Of a stretch of 29,586 bases of DNA, positions 3,393 to 29,586 are shown one piece after another. This DNA comes from a virus. The translations under genes were made by a program, and so were the position numbers. Location: IMG/VR virus record IMGVR_UViG_3300026293_000038, positions 1 through 29,586 of that record. One strand, 5' to 3'. Numbering within the stretch: position 1 is the stretch's first letter; each line of letters begins with the position of its first letter. The notes beneath the pieces are model-generated. The model worked only from the letters and a program-made list of their open reading frames with translations. It made no database searches and was not told the DNA's origin.

Positions 3393-3812
3393 ATGAATCC
3401 GCGATATCTTACCCTCAAACAGGCGGCCGTTTACACGGGCCGCTCCCCGTCCTGGCTCTACCGCAACGGGGAGGCCGTATATTCGGCCGTCAAGGTGGGC
3501 GGCAAATGGTCTTTCGACCCGTTCATGATCGACCGGGTGCACGGAGGCTGCAATGAGCGTTTACCGGGACGCGAGGCGAAAACGGAACAAATGGGTCTGG
3601 GAATTCCGTCTGCGGGGCGTCCGGTACAACAGCCCCAGGGGATACTCAAGCCGAAGACGGGCAGAAGCCGCGGAGCGCGCCTTCAGACAGGCGCTCGAGG
3701 CGCCCGCAGAGCCGCCTCCTCCGGCGGAGCCCCCTGTGGAGTCCACGACCCCTACGACCTTCTTGGAACTGGCGACCGCCGCCATGCGCAAGTGGGAGGA
3801 GGCGGCCCATGA
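3393..3812 (+). CDS. Excisionase-like HTH protein with a long overlap into int
   Basis: The first 50 or so residues (YLTLKQAAVYTGRSPSWLYR ... GGKWSFDPFMIDRV) look like a MerR/HTH_17-type excisionase or DNA-binding domain, which phages often encode just before int. The frame then continues for about 85 Arg/Gly-rich residues that overlap the integrase frame from 3553 to 3812 and show no domain. The functional protein may be only the first 55-60 residues, with an ancestral stop lost. Alternatively the full 139-residue product is made. It starts 5 bases after the CII-like gene. Confidence 0.6.
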   Translation: MNPRYLTLKQAAVYTGRSPSWLYRNGEAVYSAVKVGGKWSFDPFMIDRVHGGCNERLPGREAKTEQMGLGIPSAGRPVQQPQGILKPKTGRSRGARLQTGARGARRAASSGGAPCGVHDPYDLLGTGDRRHAQVGGGGP

Positions 3813-4806
3813 CCCGCAATGGCTCGCCACGAAGCGGTATGTCCTCAGGCGGTACTTCCGGGAATGGATGATGCTTCCTGTCTCCGAGATCACGCCCGAG
3901 CTCGTGAAAAGGCGGGTCCTTGAGATCAAGCACGAAACGTCGCCCGAGGCCGCGAACAGGTACCTCAAGATCCTGCGGGCCGTGTTCAACGCGGCCGGCG
4001 CGCCCAATCCGACGGCCGGCATACCCTTCTTTCCCAGGATGGAGCAGCCGGCGGGCGAGTACGTTCCCACCGCCGCCGACATTAAGGCTCTGCTTCTCAA
4101 GGCCGACCCGGAGCTCAGGGCATACCTCGAGGTTTCGTATCACACCGCCGCCAGGCCTTTCGAGATCGCGCGCCTGGCATGGAAGGACGTGGACTTCGCC
4201 CGCGGGACGGTCACGCTCTGGACCCGCAAGAAGTCCAGGGACCGTTCCTGGACCCCTCGGGAGATCCCGATGAACGACACGCTCAGAAGGGCCCTTAGAC
4301 AGTTGAGGTCGCGGGAGGGCGAGCTTGTTTTTCCGAACCCCAGGACGGGGGCGGCCTACATGAGGCGTCCGAAGGCCCTGAAGACTCTCTGCCGGAAGGC
4401 CGGCATTCGGCCGTTCTGCTGGAGGGGCCTGAGAAAGGCGGCCGCGACCGAGATGCTTCGCGCCGGAGTTCCGGTCCCGGTGATCTCCAAGATCCTGGGA
4501 CACACGAACATCCAGACCACGATGATTTATCTGGGGGTGGACGACGACGCGATGCGCTGGGCGCTCGCGGCGCTCAACGGAATCGTCACGATCCCTTCGG
4601 GTCGGGACTGCAAATTTCCGGAGGACGAAAAAATTACCAGTGGATCGCCAGTGGAAGCGGCGAGGGCGGAAGGGGCCCCGGGACGGCCTCTTCCGTATCC
4701 CCGCGCCGCCGTTATGGAATCTCTGGTCGGGAAGGAGGGATTTGAACCCTCGACCTCATGCTCCCGAAGCCAGGCCGTAACTTCCCGAACCAAGCGAAAC
4801 AGCTGA
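3553..4806 (+). CDS. int: Tyrosine-recombinase integrase
   Basis: A 417-residue phage integrase. Residues 1-50 form a basic arm-DNA-binding region (WVWEFRLRGVRYN). Residues 65-150 form a core-binding SAM-like domain. Residues 170-335 are catalytic: Arg201 (TAARPFEIARL), a Lys near 226-227, Arg294 (RGLRKAAAT), His317 (LGHTNI) and nucleophile Tyr326 (MIYLGV). The box II His is replaced by Arg291. A ribosome site GGAGG (3542-3546) supports the start. The last 27 codons run through the tRNA-Pro core in the opposite sense, giving the familiar GKEGFEPSTS tail. Integration would therefore replace the C-terminal codons. It integrates and, with the upstream Xis-like protein, excises the phage genome. 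Confidence 0.95.
   Translation: MSVYRDARRKRNKWVWEFRLRGVRYNSPRGYSSRRRAEAAERAFRQALEAPAEPPPPAEPPVESTTPTTFLELATAAMRKWEEAAHDPQWLATKRYVLRRYFREWMMLPVSEITPELVKRRVLEIKHETSPEAANRYLKILRAVFNAAGAPNPTAGIPFFPRMEQPAGEYVPTAADIKALLLKADPELRAYLEVSYHTAARPFEIARLAWKDVDFARGTVTLWTRKKSRDRSWTPREIPMNDTLRRALRQLRSREGELVFPNPRTGAAYMRRPKALKTLCRKAGIRPFCWRGLRKAAATEMLRAGVPVPVISKILGHTNIQTTMIYLGVDDDAMRWALAALNGIVTIPSGRDCKFPEDEKITSGSPVEAARAEGAPGRPLPYPRAAVMESLVGKEGFEPSTSCSRSQAVTSRTKRNS
4633..4654 (+). repeat. Left arm-type integrase sites of attP
   Basis: Two tandem 11-bp units, ATTACCAGTGG and ATCGCCAGTGG, lie inside the end of int. The same pair recurs in the same orientation at 4885-4906 on the other side of the core, the arrangement expected of P and P' arm sites. 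Confidence 0.7.
4724..4770 (-). other. attP core: 3' half of tRNA-Pro(CGG)
   Basis: Read on the minus strand, this 47-bp segment holds the anticodon loop TTCGGGA (anticodon CGG), the 3' anticodon strand GCATG, variable loop AGGTC, T arm GAGGG-TTCAAAT-CCCTC, acceptor strand CTTCCCG, discriminator A and CCA. Phage attachment cores commonly match the 3' half of a tRNA gene so that integration restores it. The flanking arm sites and the overlapping int support this role. Confidence 0.75.
4724..4787 (-). pseudogene. Truncated tRNA-Pro(CGG) lacking D-arm 3' part and 5' anticodon strand
   Basis: CGGGAAG at 4781-4787 (minus) pairs perfectly with the acceptor strand CTTCCCG of the core. Between it and the anticodon loop are only about 12 bases (TTACGGCCTGGC). 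Compared with a normal tRNA-Pro, about 11-14 bases after CCTGG are missing, so no D arm or anticodon stem can form. A functional tRNA is unlikely. Confidence 0.6.
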
Positions 4807-4856
4807 TTTTTCTCGCTTTCCAAACGGCATCCATCGGCTGATCCCTGGTAAAAGCC

Positions 4857-4875
4857 TACGGGTTTTGAGCCCGTA
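4857..4875. other. Hairpin between att core and right arm sites
   Basis: TACGGG (4857-4862) pairs with CCCGTA (4870-4875) around a 7-base loop. It could be a weak terminator after int or an att-region fold. The loop also resembles a tRNA-Leu(CAA) anticodon arm, but no other tRNA part is present. Confidence 0.35.
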
Positions 4876-4884
4876 TTGGAGGCG

Positions 4885-4906
4885 ATTACCAGTGGATTAC
4901 CAGTGG
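4885..4906 (+). repeat. Right arm-type integrase sites of attP
   Basis: Two perfect tandem copies of ATTACCAGTGG, matching the left arm pair at 4633-4654. The first copy contains the GTG start codon (4892-4894) of the next gene, so integrase bound here would cover its translation and transcription start region. Confidence 0.7.
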
Positions 4907-5395
4907 AAATCCGTCGCGTCTTTCGCGTTCCTAGTCGCCGTTCTCGCCTGCTCACCGTCGATCGAGCAGTGGGCCCCGAGGGCGTTCGTCGAGGGCGTTC
5001 CCGTCGCCTCGGATCTCGAGCCTGACGAGATCGACGCCCTGTCCGCGCTCGGCAAGGCCTGTGCCCGCCTATTCCCTGAGCGGGCGCTTCCTACCGTAAT
5101 TTTCGTCCGCTCTCCAAACCAGAAAGTGCCGGAAGTGTGCAAGGGCCCAGGCTGCGCCGGCGAATGCGCCGACACCTGGGCCGAGTATCCCGACGTGATG
5201 GACCCCGAACCCCGCGTGCCGTCCGAGGGATATTCCGGCCTCGAAACCGGCGGCTACGTCTTCGTCTCCAGGATCGGCCCTAGGAAGGACGCACTCATGA
5301 GCCTGCTCGTTCATGAGTTCGCGCATTGGTTCTGCGGCTGCGGGCACGGCCCCGAGCACGACGCAATGGAGAAAACTCTTTGGGAGGCGCTGTGA
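4892..5395 (+). CDS. Predicted lipoprotein zinc metallopeptidase
   Basis: A 167-residue protein starting at GTG 4892, with GGAGG at 4878-4882 nine bases ahead. The N-terminus has a short charged stretch, a hydrophobic segment and a lipobox-like end (FLVAVLAC, Cys20), so it is probably exported and lipid-anchored. Near the C-terminus, VHEFAHWFCGCGHGPEHD contains a zinc-metalloprotease HEXXH motif with later His/Asp residues as possible third ligands. There are several Cys in the middle (CKGPGCAGEC). It sits alone between attP and the early genes, the typical place for a lysogenic-conversion gene. Its substrate is unknown and the family is not named here. Confidence 0.65.
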   Translation: MDYQWKSVASFAFLVAVLACSPSIEQWAPRAFVEGVPVASDLEPDEIDALSALGKACARLFPERALPTVIFVRSPNQKVPEVCKGPGCAGECADTWAEYPDVMDPEPRVPSEGYSGLETGGYVFVSRIGPRKDALMSLLVHEFAHWFCGCGHGPEHDAMEKTLWEAL

Positions 5396-5895: not shown

Positions 5896-6114
5896 ATGTA
5901 TTGCTGCGACGTCCTACTGTTCAACACATGCGACGGCGGAGAGTCCTGCGAATGTCGAAGCGTGGACGTGCGCGAGGCCGGCCGGAGAGTCTACACGCTC
6001 ATCGAGCGGTGCGATCGGCCGTACGTGGAACGCGGAGACAAAATCATGGTGACGGGCTCCAACGAACCTCTTACCGTCTGCCCATACTGCGGGGAGCGGG
6101 TGGCCGATGCGTGA
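5896..6114 (+). CDS. Small Cys-rich phage protein
   Basis: A 72-residue protein with Cys pairs at the N-terminus (YCCDVLL, GGESCECRS) and CPYCG near the C-terminus, suggesting a zinc site. Part of its coding sequence (6001-6046, IERCDRPYVERGDKI) is copied exactly at 6115-6160, where it is read in another frame as the start of the nuclease gene. It overlaps the nuclease start at 6107. Confidence 0.6.
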   Translation: MYCCDVLLFNTCDGGESCECRSVDVREAGRRVYTLIERCDRPYVERGDKIMVTGSNEPLTVCPYCGERVADA

Positions 6115-6160
6115 ATCGAGCGGTGCGATCGGCCGTACGTGGAACGCGGAGACAAAATCA
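6001..6160 (+). repeat. Exact 46-bp direct repeat, copies 114 bp apart
   Basis: Copies occupy 6001-6046 and 6115-6160 and are identical base for base, with flanks that differ at once. Copy 1 is inside the Cys-rich gene. Copy 2 straddles the beginning of the exonuclease gene in a different reading frame. Confidence 0.95.
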
Positions 6161-6724
6161 CTGCCCAGCGTAACCGAAGTCCTTCGACCATACCAGGATC
6201 TCCGGGCGGTCCCGCCAGACGCGCTCGAACACGCGGCCTGGAGAGGGACCGAGGTGCACAGGATCTGCTCCTGCGTCGCCCGCGGAGTGCCTTATCTGGG
6301 AGGCGTCCCCGAGGGTTGCGCCGGATATGTCCTTTCGTTCCAGGAGTGGTTCGGGTTTGCCGTCATATCGGTGCACCTGGTCGAGCAGGAGCTGGTCGAC
6401 ATGGAGCTAGGCTACCGGGGACGTCCCGACCTTATCGCCAGGCTCAGGGGAGATTCCGAAGCCGAGCTCACCCTGGTCGACTATAAGACCGCCAGGACGG
6501 TCTCCAGGATATGGAGGGGCCAGTTGGCCGCCTACAGGCGGCTTGCCGACAGGGCCGGCTATCCGGTCCTTCGGACTCTGGCCCTCAGACTGGATGAGAC
6601 CGGAGGGCCCGCAAAGGTAACGGAGTACACGGACCACAAGAGGGACTTCGCCGCCTTCCTGGCGGCCCTGACCGCCTACAAGTATTTCGTTCAAGACACG
6701 AAAAAAGGAGGTAAGGAACCATGA
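6107..6724 (+). CDS. PD-(D/E)XK phage exonuclease (RecB-like)
   Basis: A 205-residue nuclease of the RecB/PDDEXK type. It begins with LPSVTEVL, typical of phage family members. It then shows WRGTEVHRI, an upstream Glu (VEQELV), Asp108 in GRPDLI, the D-Y-K motif at 125-127 (LVDYKT) and Gln139-x-x-x-Tyr (GQLAAYR). These residues form the metal-dependent active site. It should resect DNA ends so that the downstream RecT-like protein can load, the pairing known from phage two-component recombination systems. Residues 4-18 are encoded by copy 2 of the 46-bp repeat, so the extreme N-terminus looks newly acquired. It overlaps the coiled-coil gene at ATGA (6721-6724). Confidence 0.8.
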   Translation: MRESSGAIGRTWNAETKSLPSVTEVLRPYQDLRAVPPDALEHAAWRGTEVHRICSCVARGVPYLGGVPEGCAGYVLSFQEWFGFAVISVHLVEQELVDMELGYRGRPDLIARLRGDSEAELTLVDYKTARTVSRIWRGQLAAYRRLADRAGYPVLRTLALRLDETGGPAKVTEYTDHKRDFAAFLAALTAYKYFVQDTKKGGKEP

Positions 6725-7432: not shown

Positions 7433-8383
7433 ATGCAGACGAGAACGGAGCTCACGGCACAGAAGGTTAAGACGATCCGCGCCCTGCTTACGGACGAGCG
7501 CGTGAAGAAACAACTCCTGATGGCGATCCCGAAGCACCTGTCCGTCGACCGCCTGCTCAGGGTGGCGATCACGTCCATACAACGCAACCCGGCACTCCTT
7601 GAATGCACGCCACAAAGCCTTCTGGCTTGCGTGATGACCGCGGCGCAGCTCGGCCTGGAGCCCGACGGAATTACCGGGCAGGCCTACATGGTCCCGTACA
7701 GGAACAGCAAGAAGCCCGGAAAACCCATGGAGGCGCAGCTCATTCCCGGCTACCGCGGGCTCCTGGCCCTCACGAGGCGCAGTGGGGAAGTCAGGAGCGT
7801 GCAGGCTCACGTCGTCTACTCGAACGACCGGTTCGAGCTGCGCTACGGGCTCGACGAGAAGCTCGAGCACGTGCCGGCCGACGGGGACCGTGGGGAGCCG
7901 AGGGGCGCATACGTGATTTTCCGGTACAAGGACGGGTCGCATTCGTTCGACTACATGAGCAGGGAAGACATCGAGAAGGTACGACAGCGCTCGAAATCGC
8001 CCGCCGAAGGCCCGTGGGCCACGGACTGGGACGAAATGGCGAAAAAGACCGTGATCCGCCGGCACGCGAAGCTAGCTCCGATGTCCGTCGAATTCGCCAA
8101 GGCGGTGGCTCTTGAGGACAGGTTCCATGCCGGAGAGTCACAAATGGACCTGCTTACCGAGGGAGAACAGGTGATCGAGCCGGAACAGCCCCTTCCGGAG
8201 CCTTGTTTCGAAGAGCTCGTTGCCGAAGCCGCAAAGGGAGACGGGGCGATCTTACAGCAACTCGAAAAATTCGTCGCAGTCACGGCGGAGGCGAACGGGA
8301 TCGGTCCGGAGGAACTCAAGGAGACGGCTGCCAGGAATTTCGAAGAGTTTTGGCACGCATTCCACCAATGGATGCAGAAGTAG
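7433..8383 (+). CDS. recT: RecT-family single-strand annealing protein
   Basis: A 316-residue RecT homologue. The conserved core covers residues 25-230: the helical start (LPKHL-like, IPKHLSVDRLLRVAITSIQRNP), LLACVMTAAQLGLEPDGITGQAYMVPY, AQLIPGYRGLLALTRRSGEVRSVQAHVVYSNDRFE, and WDEMAKKTVIRRHAKLAPMS. These are standard RecT signatures. The acidic tail (230-316) differs more. It anneals complementary single strands made by the exonuclease, for phage recombination and circularisation. Weak ribosome site (AGGGGAAACAAAAG). Confidence 0.95.
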   Translation: MQTRTELTAQKVKTIRALLTDERVKKQLLMAIPKHLSVDRLLRVAITSIQRNPALLECTPQSLLACVMTAAQLGLEPDGITGQAYMVPYRNSKKPGKPMEAQLIPGYRGLLALTRRSGEVRSVQAHVVYSNDRFELRYGLDEKLEHVPADGDRGEPRGAYVIFRYKDGSHSFDYMSREDIEKVRQRSKSPAEGPWATDWDEMAKKTVIRRHAKLAPMSVEFAKAVALEDRFHAGESQMDLLTEGEQVIEPEQPLPEPCFEELVAEAAKGDGAILQQLEKFVAVTAEANGIGPEELKETAARNFEEFWHAFHQWMQK

Positions 8384-26727: not shown

Positions 26728-29586
26728 TGATCAACCCCGCGACGATAGGTCTCGGATTTCTGTCCGGTATGATGAGCGGATTCGCCTCGGGCGGGACGGG
26801 AGTATACCGGATTTTCAGTCTACCGCCGCGGACATTTGCGTCATCGCTGCCTCCGATGGAGGATCGGATTCCGCAGATTTCCGGCACCAGCCGCAGATTG
26901 CAGTCGAGCCTCGCGTATGGTTTTTCGGGCCCGCGCAATTCGACTTCGGACGGCCTGGCGATTCCCGTACTCGGAGGCCGGTTCCGCACGGGCGCGCAGG
27001 TCATTAACTACTACATCGAGGCCGCGGACAAGCGTGAAATCCTCTACCTGCTTCTGGCGATAGCCGAGGGCCCGCTGGAAGCCGTCGTTTATGGGAACAC
27101 GGTTTCCAACATCTGGGTATCGAAAAACCGCAAACTTTCTGAAATCAAGGGCGCTGAGTTTCAGACGCGAGCCGGCACGCACGATCAGACCGCGATCGAT
27201 TGGTTCGGGGAGCTGCATCAGGTCCGGACCGTAGAGATAGATCTTACGCAGCCGACGAAACTCCTGCTGCATTTCGAGGAAAGTCCTTTCAGGGATTCGA
27301 GCATTTTCTCAAGGACCATCACCGCCAACGGAGTCACACGATCGAGCGCGCAAAGGAAGTTCGGAACATACTCCGGCCTTTTCGCCTCCTCGGATGTCTC
27401 CGATTCGTATTACCTGGACCTTACGGACGGCAGTGCGGACGAAAACGGCGCCTTCGATCTCGGGTCGGACGATTTTACGTTTGAAGTCTGGCTCAGGCCC
27501 GGCACGCTCACGGCCTTTAAAAAGTACGGTATCTGGAAATGGCAGAACGAGACGGACCGTTCCGGATATGGGCTGGAGTATTACCACATCAACGAAAGTC
27601 TTTCCCAGTTTTTGTTCCGATCGGAAGGTACTTCCGGAGGCGTCAAATACTTCGTTTTCGCCTACGGACACATGACCTCCGACAACTGGTATCACATCGC
27701 CCTCGTGCGATCGGGAAACAGATTTTACTTCTTTTTCAACGGAACGGACGAGGCCTTACCCTCCGTGGACGACCACTGGGAAGACCCTCTGGACAGACCG
27801 AGCAATCCGGGCGTCGTCCCGACTCTCGGCAAGGCCGTCAAGTTCGAGGGCGGGACATACGATTGGCGCGGGTACATGGACGAAATGAGATTTGTCAGGG
27901 GCCAGGCGATCTACACGTCCGATTTCACACCGCCCGACGCACCGTTCGAAGGATACGAGACGGACCTTATCTCCACGCGCGGGACCGCAGTCGACAAGCT
28001 CTCTCTGATCTTTGCCTTTCCGTACGGTCTTTACGCGGAGCAGGCCGACCAGTCGACCGGAGAAATTACCGTGGTCGGCAAGGACGTCGAAATCGATGTT
28101 TTGGTTTCAAGAGACGACTGGAGCGGGACCTATTACCAGTGGCTCGGGGACGTCCGCAGGATTTCGGCTTTCCGCAAGGGTATGTACCGCGCGCAAATAA
28201 CGCTGGAGTTCAACCTGATGACCTACACGACCGTGTCTGGCACGTTCCAGGCCGGCGAACAGATCACGGGCTCGACGAGCGGGGCGAAAGCGACCATCGC
28301 CGTCCGCCGTAGCTCGACCGCAATGTACGTCGTGAACGTGAACGGCACGTTCCAGGCCGGCGAACAGATCACGGGCTCGACGAGCGGGGCCACGGGCACG
28401 GTGTCTACGGTGCCGGCGCCGGACGCCAAAAGATGGCATGTGAAAGTCTATCGCAGAACGGACGACGATTACCGCTCGTCGAGCGTGAGCGCGTGCTCGC
28501 TCTATTTGGTGGACGAGATTTACAGAAAATCTTTGGCATATCCGAACGTCGCCCTGCTCGGGCTCAAGGTGCCTTATACGGACAAGGCCGCGGACCTCGA
28601 GGACGTGAGCGTGATCGCCGACCAGGGCGACGTCACGATCCCGCAATGGGCGATCGCCGGCGGAGGCACGCAAACCAGACCGTCGTCCAATCCTGCCTAC
28701 ATGCTGGTCCGGGTCCTGTGCAACTGTCTCGGCGTGGACATAGAACGGATCGACCGGGACAGCATCCTGGCATGGGCCGACTACTGCTCCGCCGCGGTCG
28801 GGTCCGTGGCGCGGGCCTCCTGGAACGGCATATTCGACACGCTCGGGACCGGGGACGACGCCGTCAACGCGATCCTCAAGGTCGGCCGCGCCTCGCTCGT
28901 AAAAAGCGACAAATACAGGGTCAAGGTGGAAACGGTCGTCCAGGAAAGCCAGTTCACGGGCCTGTTCACGGCCGGAAACATCGTCTCGGGTTCATACGAT
29001 TTCCAGTGGATACGTAAGAGCGACCATCCGCACGCGGTGACCGTGGAGTATTACGACGCCGCGGCCGAATACGAACGCAGGAGCGTCAGTTACCGCGGGC
29101 CCGAGTATGACCTCACGGACGAGCCGCTCAGAATCGAAAGGGATTTTCTCATCGGATGCACATCTCAGGATCAGGCCAGACGGTACGCGATCCTGCGCTG
29201 GCAGCTCGCAAACATGCCGAACTGCACATGCCAGTTCGAAACTTCGGTCCAGGGCATAAACTGCGAGCCCGGGGACGTGATTTGGGTACAGCCCATGCAC
29301 AGCCGGAGGACGTTCGGAGGTCTGGTCGTTTCCGGAACAACTACCTCGGTCACGCTAGACCAGCCCGTAAGGCTCGACTCGTCTGTCATCGGTGGCCTTG
29401 CGACTATTTGGGTGCGGCACGCGAACGGATCGATAGAACGCCGGACGATTTCAGGGCCGTTCGACACGGAAACGTCGACCCTTTCTGTCTCCTCCGCCTG
29501 GAGCAGCACGCCCGCCAGGCACGACCTTTACGGGATCGGCAGGTTCCACTCGAACGTCAATGCGATCGACGTCTGGCGCTGGCGGG
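26727..29586 (+). CDS. gpJ-like central tail tip protein, partial at right edge, with LamG insertion
   Basis: An open frame from ATG 26727 (overlapping the L stop) with no stop before the window end, so at least 953 residues. Residues 1-178 form the gpJ-type start (LAIPVLGGRFRTGAQVINYYIEAADKREILYLLLAIAEGP). Residues about 179-409 are a Laminin-G/ConA-like domain (LLLHFEESPF, DFTFEVWLRPGTL, WYHIALVRSGNRFYFFFNGT, WRGYMDEMRFVRG). The core resumes with VDKLSLIFAFPYGLYAEQADQSTGEI. Residues 500-565 are two GEQITGSTSGA modules. The core then continues (KRWHVKVYRRTDDDYRSSS, YPNVALLGLKV) with Ig-like tip domains. It should pierce or recognise the host surface, and the LamG-like part may bind glycans. 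Confidence 0.88.
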   Translation, partial: MINPATIGLGFLSGMMSGFASGGTGVYRIFSLPPRTFASSLPPMEDRIPQISGTSRRLQSSLAYGFSGPRNSTSDGLAIPVLGGRFRTGAQVINYYIEAADKREILYLLLAIAEGPLEAVVYGNTVSNIWVSKNRKLSEIKGAEFQTRAGTHDQTAIDWFGELHQVRTVEIDLTQPTKLLLHFEESPFRDSSIFSRTITANGVTRSSAQRKFGTYSGLFASSDVSDSYYLDLTDGSADENGAFDLGSDDFTFEVWLRPGTLTAFKKYGIWKWQNETDRSGYGLEYYHINESLSQFLFRSEGTSGGVKYFVFAYGHMTSDNWYHIALVRSGNRFYFFFNGTDEALPSVDDHWEDPLDRPSNPGVVPTLGKAVKFEGGTYDWRGYMDEMRFVRGQAIYTSDFTPPDAPFEGYETDLISTRGTAVDKLSLIFAFPYGLYAEQADQSTGEITVVGKDVEIDVLVSRDDWSGTYYQWLGDVRRISAFRKGMYRAQITLEFNLMTYTTVSGTFQAGEQITGSTSGAKATIAVRRSSTAMYVVNVNGTFQAGEQITGSTSGATGTVSTVPAPDAKRWHVKVYRRTDDDYRSSSVSACSLYLVDEIYRKSLAYPNVALLGLKVPYTDKAADLEDVSVIADQGDVTIPQWAIAGGGTQTRPSSNPAYMLVRVLCNCLGVDIERIDRDSILAWADYCSAAVGSVARASWNGIFDTLGTGDDAVNAILKVGRASLVKSDKYRVKVETVVQESQFTGLFTAGNIVSGSYDFQWIRKSDHPHAVTVEYYDAAAEYERRSVSYRGPEYDLTDEPLRIERDFLIGCTSQDQARRYAILRWQLANMPNCTCQFETSVQGINCEPGDVIWVQPMHSRRTFGGLVVSGTTTSVTLDQPVRLDSSVIGGLATIWVRHANGSIERRTISGPFDTETSTLSVSSAWSSTPARHDLYGIGRFHSNVNAIDVWRWR
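28239..28390 (+). repeat. Exact 47-bp in-frame repeat inside the gpJ-like gene
   Basis: Copies at 28239-28285 and 28344-28390 are identical and 105 bp (35 codons) apart. They encode GTFQAGEQITGSTSGA twice. Perfect identity suggests a recent duplication or ongoing recombination. Confidence 0.95.

Follow-up and report, generated by a model that had tools for sequence, protein, structure and literature searches.

Sequence of an uncultured temperate siphophage points to a complete attP site built on the 3′ half of tRNA-Pro(CGG)

A tyrosine integrase gene that runs into half of a tRNA gene can be read in more than one way, and here the question is whether such a locus represents an unsplit phage attachment site (attP), one end of an integrated or decayed prophage, or something unrelated to integration. 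The stretch analysed here, called the window, is the whole IMG/VR virus record IMGVR_UViG_3300026293_000038 (29,586 bp, linear). It is a fragment of a temperate siphophage and encodes, besides the features in Table 1, a large terminase, portal, protease, capsid and tape measure. We conclude that it very probably holds the complete attP site of this phage, at which the integrase most likely binds paired arm sites and a core, and recombines with a host tRNA-Pro(CGG) gene.

Table 1 Features of the attP region and flanking phage genes (window coordinates)
Feature	Position	Strand	Evidence or remark
CI-like repressor with S24 peptidase domain	2029–2811	−	Profile matches; indicates temperate lifestyle
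Tyrosine integrase	3553–4806	+	PF00589, E = 2.8e-25; phrog_1, E = 1.9e-53, residues 8–349
Left (int-side) tandem pair of putative 11-bp arm sites	4633–4654	+	ATTACCAGTGG/ATCGCCAGTGG
Strong GC-rich hairpin between left arm pair and tRNA 3′ end	4655–4715	−	Fold −37.5 kcal/mol, z = −2.8
Probable attP core: tRNA-Pro(CGG) 3′ half, anticodon loop to CCA	4724–4770	−	91% identity to tRNA-Pro of MAG JANQFG01
TCGGGAAG, matching the 5′ acceptor strand of the target tRNA-Pro	4780–4787	−	Allows a D-armless tRNA-like fold
Right tandem pair of putative arm sites	4885–4906	+	ATTACCAGTGG twice, exact, in the orientation of the left pair
Exonuclease	6107–6724		Right of attP core
RecT	7433–8383		Right of attP core

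The core is nearly identical to the terminal 3′ portion of a tRNA, with CCA encoded as TGG at 4724–4726 and the anticodon CGG as ccg at 4764–4766. Across 4723–4770 (47–48 bp), identity to a real tRNA-Pro(CGG) is 91% (4 differences in 47), the comparison being with the tRNA of MAG JANQFG01, which serves as a reference and is not that of the true host. Two compensated pairs differ in the T-stem (GAGGG/CCCTC in the window, CGGGG/CCCCG in the MAG), so the half in the window still folds. It derives from, or has stayed functional for, another host.

Consistent with the initial annotation, which had held that no intact tRNA forms at this locus, ARAGORN found none in the window. The Rfam tRNA model was barely over its threshold at 4727–4787 (29.2 versus 29 bits), because of an 8-nt 5′ acceptor strand, TCGGGAAG; this strand is a remnant or a chance match. 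The resulting fold lacks a D-arm and its anticodon stem is broken, and a functional D-armless tRNA here is unlikely. Phages with tRNA-dependent lysogeny encode an intact tRNA of the isotype they target and have a short core (PMC10865867). Here the core is long, and neither the window, an incomplete record, nor a 5-kb extension of it contains a tRNA gene.

The integrase gene adjoins the site. Its homology stops near residue 349 (near nucleotide 4599), and its last ~68 codons cross the left arm pair, the hairpin and the antisense tRNA core. An overlap between the tRNA core and the int 3′ end had been noted from the start, and the overlap stands; its extent had been understated, in that the frame runs through the whole core to 4806. 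Since this read-through is in frame, integration would exchange the last integrase codons for host-encoded ones, giving a C-terminus that differs between free phage and prophage and that might act as an integration/excision switch, a scenario we consider very unlikely.

Between the left arm pair and the tRNA 3′ end, the hairpin at 4655–4715 was matched by 1 of 200 shuffles, with the longer stretch 4625–4723 reaching only z = −1.7. It is read in the direction of the tRNA, with a T run past the arm pair, and may be a terminator or form the RNA 3′ end of the regenerated tRNA. Similar hairpins were seen by eye in five of the loci described below (L019, L028, L034, L036 and L038).

Tandem 11-bp units had been proposed on both sides of the core, and both pairs are present, although the left one is imperfect: ATTACCAGTGG is exact at 4633–4643, and the adjoining unit at 4644–4654, ATCGCCAGTGG, carries 2 mismatches. 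The right pair consists of exact copies at 4885–4895 and 4896–4906. The unit is, as anticipated, not common in the genome; two further copies, an exact one at 28132 and one with 1 mismatch at 28999, are single, non-tandem and within a tail gene. Allowing up to 2 mismatches, ATTACCAGTGG has 12 matches in the window (3.0 expected), with tandem pairs only at 4633 and 4885 and none in 300 Markov-1 controls. A motif-independent test, open to any sequence, gave 131 tandem seeds for the window, of which the ATTACCAGTGG seed alone recurs within 60–400 bp. Two identical 47-bp direct repeats (28239–28285 and 28344–28390, 105 bp apart) lie within a tail protein gene.

Relatives of the integrase, at 24–43% identity, occur in MAG JANQFG01 and its relatives. 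We examined 20 such loci (L020 and L027–L045), five of which have no tRNA or fragment within 400 bp. In the other 15, an antisense tRNA, whole or as a fragment, directly adjoins the 3′ end of the integrase gene; the isotypes are Lys, Asn, Glu, Leu, Arg and Ala. All but one of these 15 have a tandem repeat 28–82 bp before the tRNA (11- or 12-bp period, at least 8 of 9 positions matching), a score reached by same-length segments elsewhere in these loci in 0–14% of cases. The repeat unit differs in most cases. With its left pair 68 bp from the tRNA, the window thus has this pair at the arm-site position of the integrase family, and the pattern in the relatives fits existing knowledge of arm-type sites.

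These comparisons bear on a different reading of the 11-bp repeats, as operators or some other kind of regulatory element in the int/exo region. In its favour, the centre of ATTACCAGTGG is nearly palindromic (CCAGTGG), and the arm-site role is deduced from sequence. However, the repeats lie at the int 3′ end, have an 11-bp period and flank the core as tandem pairs, an anatomy that recurs with other unit sequences in the integrase relatives; we regard a regulatory role as highly improbable.

A scan of GTDB genomes with the tRNA half returned matches in two places, both in MAG JANQFG01 PL23a_bin.76. At the first, L019, the order is integrase, tandem CTGACACAATAGTGACACAG, hairpin, intact tRNA-Pro(CGG), and then rpe, rsmB and fmt (these three named from translations). 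The second, L018, has the tRNA 3′ half only, with tandem CTGTCACAGTACTGTCACAG 165 bp from it, followed by SIR2 and HerA genes; on the other side of the half lie a hairpin and a gene for a repeat-rich secreted protein. The units CTGACACAATAGTGACACAG and CTGTCACAGTACTGTCACAG differ by one base, and the two tRNA copies match from the anticodon loop onward, as in the window. We infer that L019 is the int-side end and L018 the far end of one integrated element, on separate contigs. Joined, they would reproduce the layout of the window with other unit sequences; in the window both halves lie on one molecule, which supports an attP. The element thus resembles the window in its tRNA, in an identity block from the anticodon loop and in tandem 11-bp pairs on each side, and differs in being integrated and in having SIR2–HerA genes beside its far end. 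The integrase of the L019 element had no match to that of the window (tblastn, E ≤ 1e-3). Directly inside the far end, the SIR2 (PADLOC, E = 7e-109) and HerA (E = 1e-152) genes are intact (L018, 3223–6286).

The attP layout put forward by the initial annotation is therefore backed directly by the sequence and its arrangement, with both arm pairs, the tRNA 3′ half and flanking phage genes, by the recurrence in related integrases and by the split counterpart at tRNA-Pro(CGG) in MAG JANQFG01. A tRNA 3′ half without its 5′ half does resemble a displaced fragment, as if the locus were the attL or attR of a dead prophage, or a degraded tRNA gene in host DNA. The presence of both arm pairs, with phage genes flanking the core to its left and right, contradicts this reading, and the open integrase and repressor frames also argue against it, making this explanation extremely improbable.

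What, then, was the state of the sequenced molecule? Phage genes had been noted on both flanks, and this is borne out: right of 4787 there is no host gene, and the exonuclease and RecT genes follow. With phage DNA on both sides of an unsplit site, a normal prophage at the tRNA-Pro site is excluded, and the simplest reading is a free phage or circle. Two observations were made in passing on this flank. The ORF at 4865–5395 encodes a hydrophobic stretch at the N-terminus and a motif, HEFAH (HExxH), that resembles those of metalloproteases, and had no family match in profile searches; an exact 46-bp repeat (6001–6046 and 6115–6160, 114 bp apart) has one copy shortly ahead of the exonuclease gene and the other at its beginning.

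The site could also be an attP sequence on a prophage that is integrated elsewhere, at a secondary attB or as a tandem lysogen. The record has no end repeats, and HerA-like pieces at its left end, which contain a stop and frameshifts, might represent decayed host DNA. On the minus strand of 1–1900, these broken pieces of a HerA-like ATPase lie at 3–674 and 845–1066, interrupted by a frameshift and, at the Walker A region, by a stop. They are preceded by a helix-turn-helix ORF (1280–1903), whose C-terminal part, together with the next frame (1027–1416), looks NurA-like by eye. The region is either a NurA–HerA-type pair beside the repressor or decayed host DNA, and the pieces at 1–1070 may represent cargo genes of the phage, host DNA or low-quality sequence at a contig end. 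Phages often carry extra genes next to the repressor, and contig ends are error-prone. Against integration elsewhere, the HerA-like pieces adjoin the repressor and are not bordered by a tRNA, a repeat or a junction. Moreover, two contigs from other metagenomes, 99.8–99.9% identical to the window over the common part, continue the phage rightward, one by ~5 kb to the endolysin gene and beyond, and not into recognisable host genes. We consider a prophage at another site unlikely, and a free phage or circle the simpler of two readings between which the sequence does not decide.

Searches of viral contigs gave no match to the exact tRNA core or to the left end of the window, the right end of contig G001 did not overlap the window's left end, and no IMG/VR relative of the integrase, the exonuclease or the ORF right of attP was near enough to show a junction. 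A plasmid search with the core gave short matches only (80–89% identical, of tRNA 3′-half length). In a phylum-wide tRNA search, 3 of 395 genomes were within 3 mismatches. The TerL of this phage was not found in MAG JANQFG01 or in four genomes with integrase relatives, so the MAG's phylum is not established as host. These searches did not recover the attB of the true host, the closest tRNA being the 91% match described above.

The attP described here is ordinary yet unusually complete, and its mechanism would be that known for lambda-type tRNA integrators. The N-terminal domain of the integrase would bind the two tandem arm pairs, and its central and catalytic domains the core. Strand exchange with the matching sequence in the host tRNA-Pro(CGG) gene is predicted in or near the anticodon loop (about 4762–4768). 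After integration, the int side would again have an intact tRNA and the other side the displaced 3′ half. Because the attP holds the sequence from the anticodon loop through CCA, the tRNA would be regenerated and the host gene left unbroken.

Comparable sites are known. In the mycobacteriophages Boilgate and Omega, putative arm-type site pairs flank an attP core of ~43–44 bp of a tRNA 3′ half, and the tRNA is likewise regenerated on integration; the window differs in its tRNA (Pro CGG), integrase and unit sequence (PMC10865867). Anticodon-centred crossovers are a common class, and in Islander class A genomic islands the identity block likewise begins at the anticodon loop and extends to the end of the tRNA, but the window has an unsplit phage site rather than island ends (PMC4383910). 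Direct repeats have also been described as putative arm sites in oenophages (PMC8074189).

For an uncultured phage, the locus supplies an integrase together with a clean att site, and indicates tRNA-Pro(CGG) as the target in its host, which aids host assignment. The tandem pair of 11–12-bp units before the tRNA can serve as a convenient marker when att sites are sought in sequence alone.
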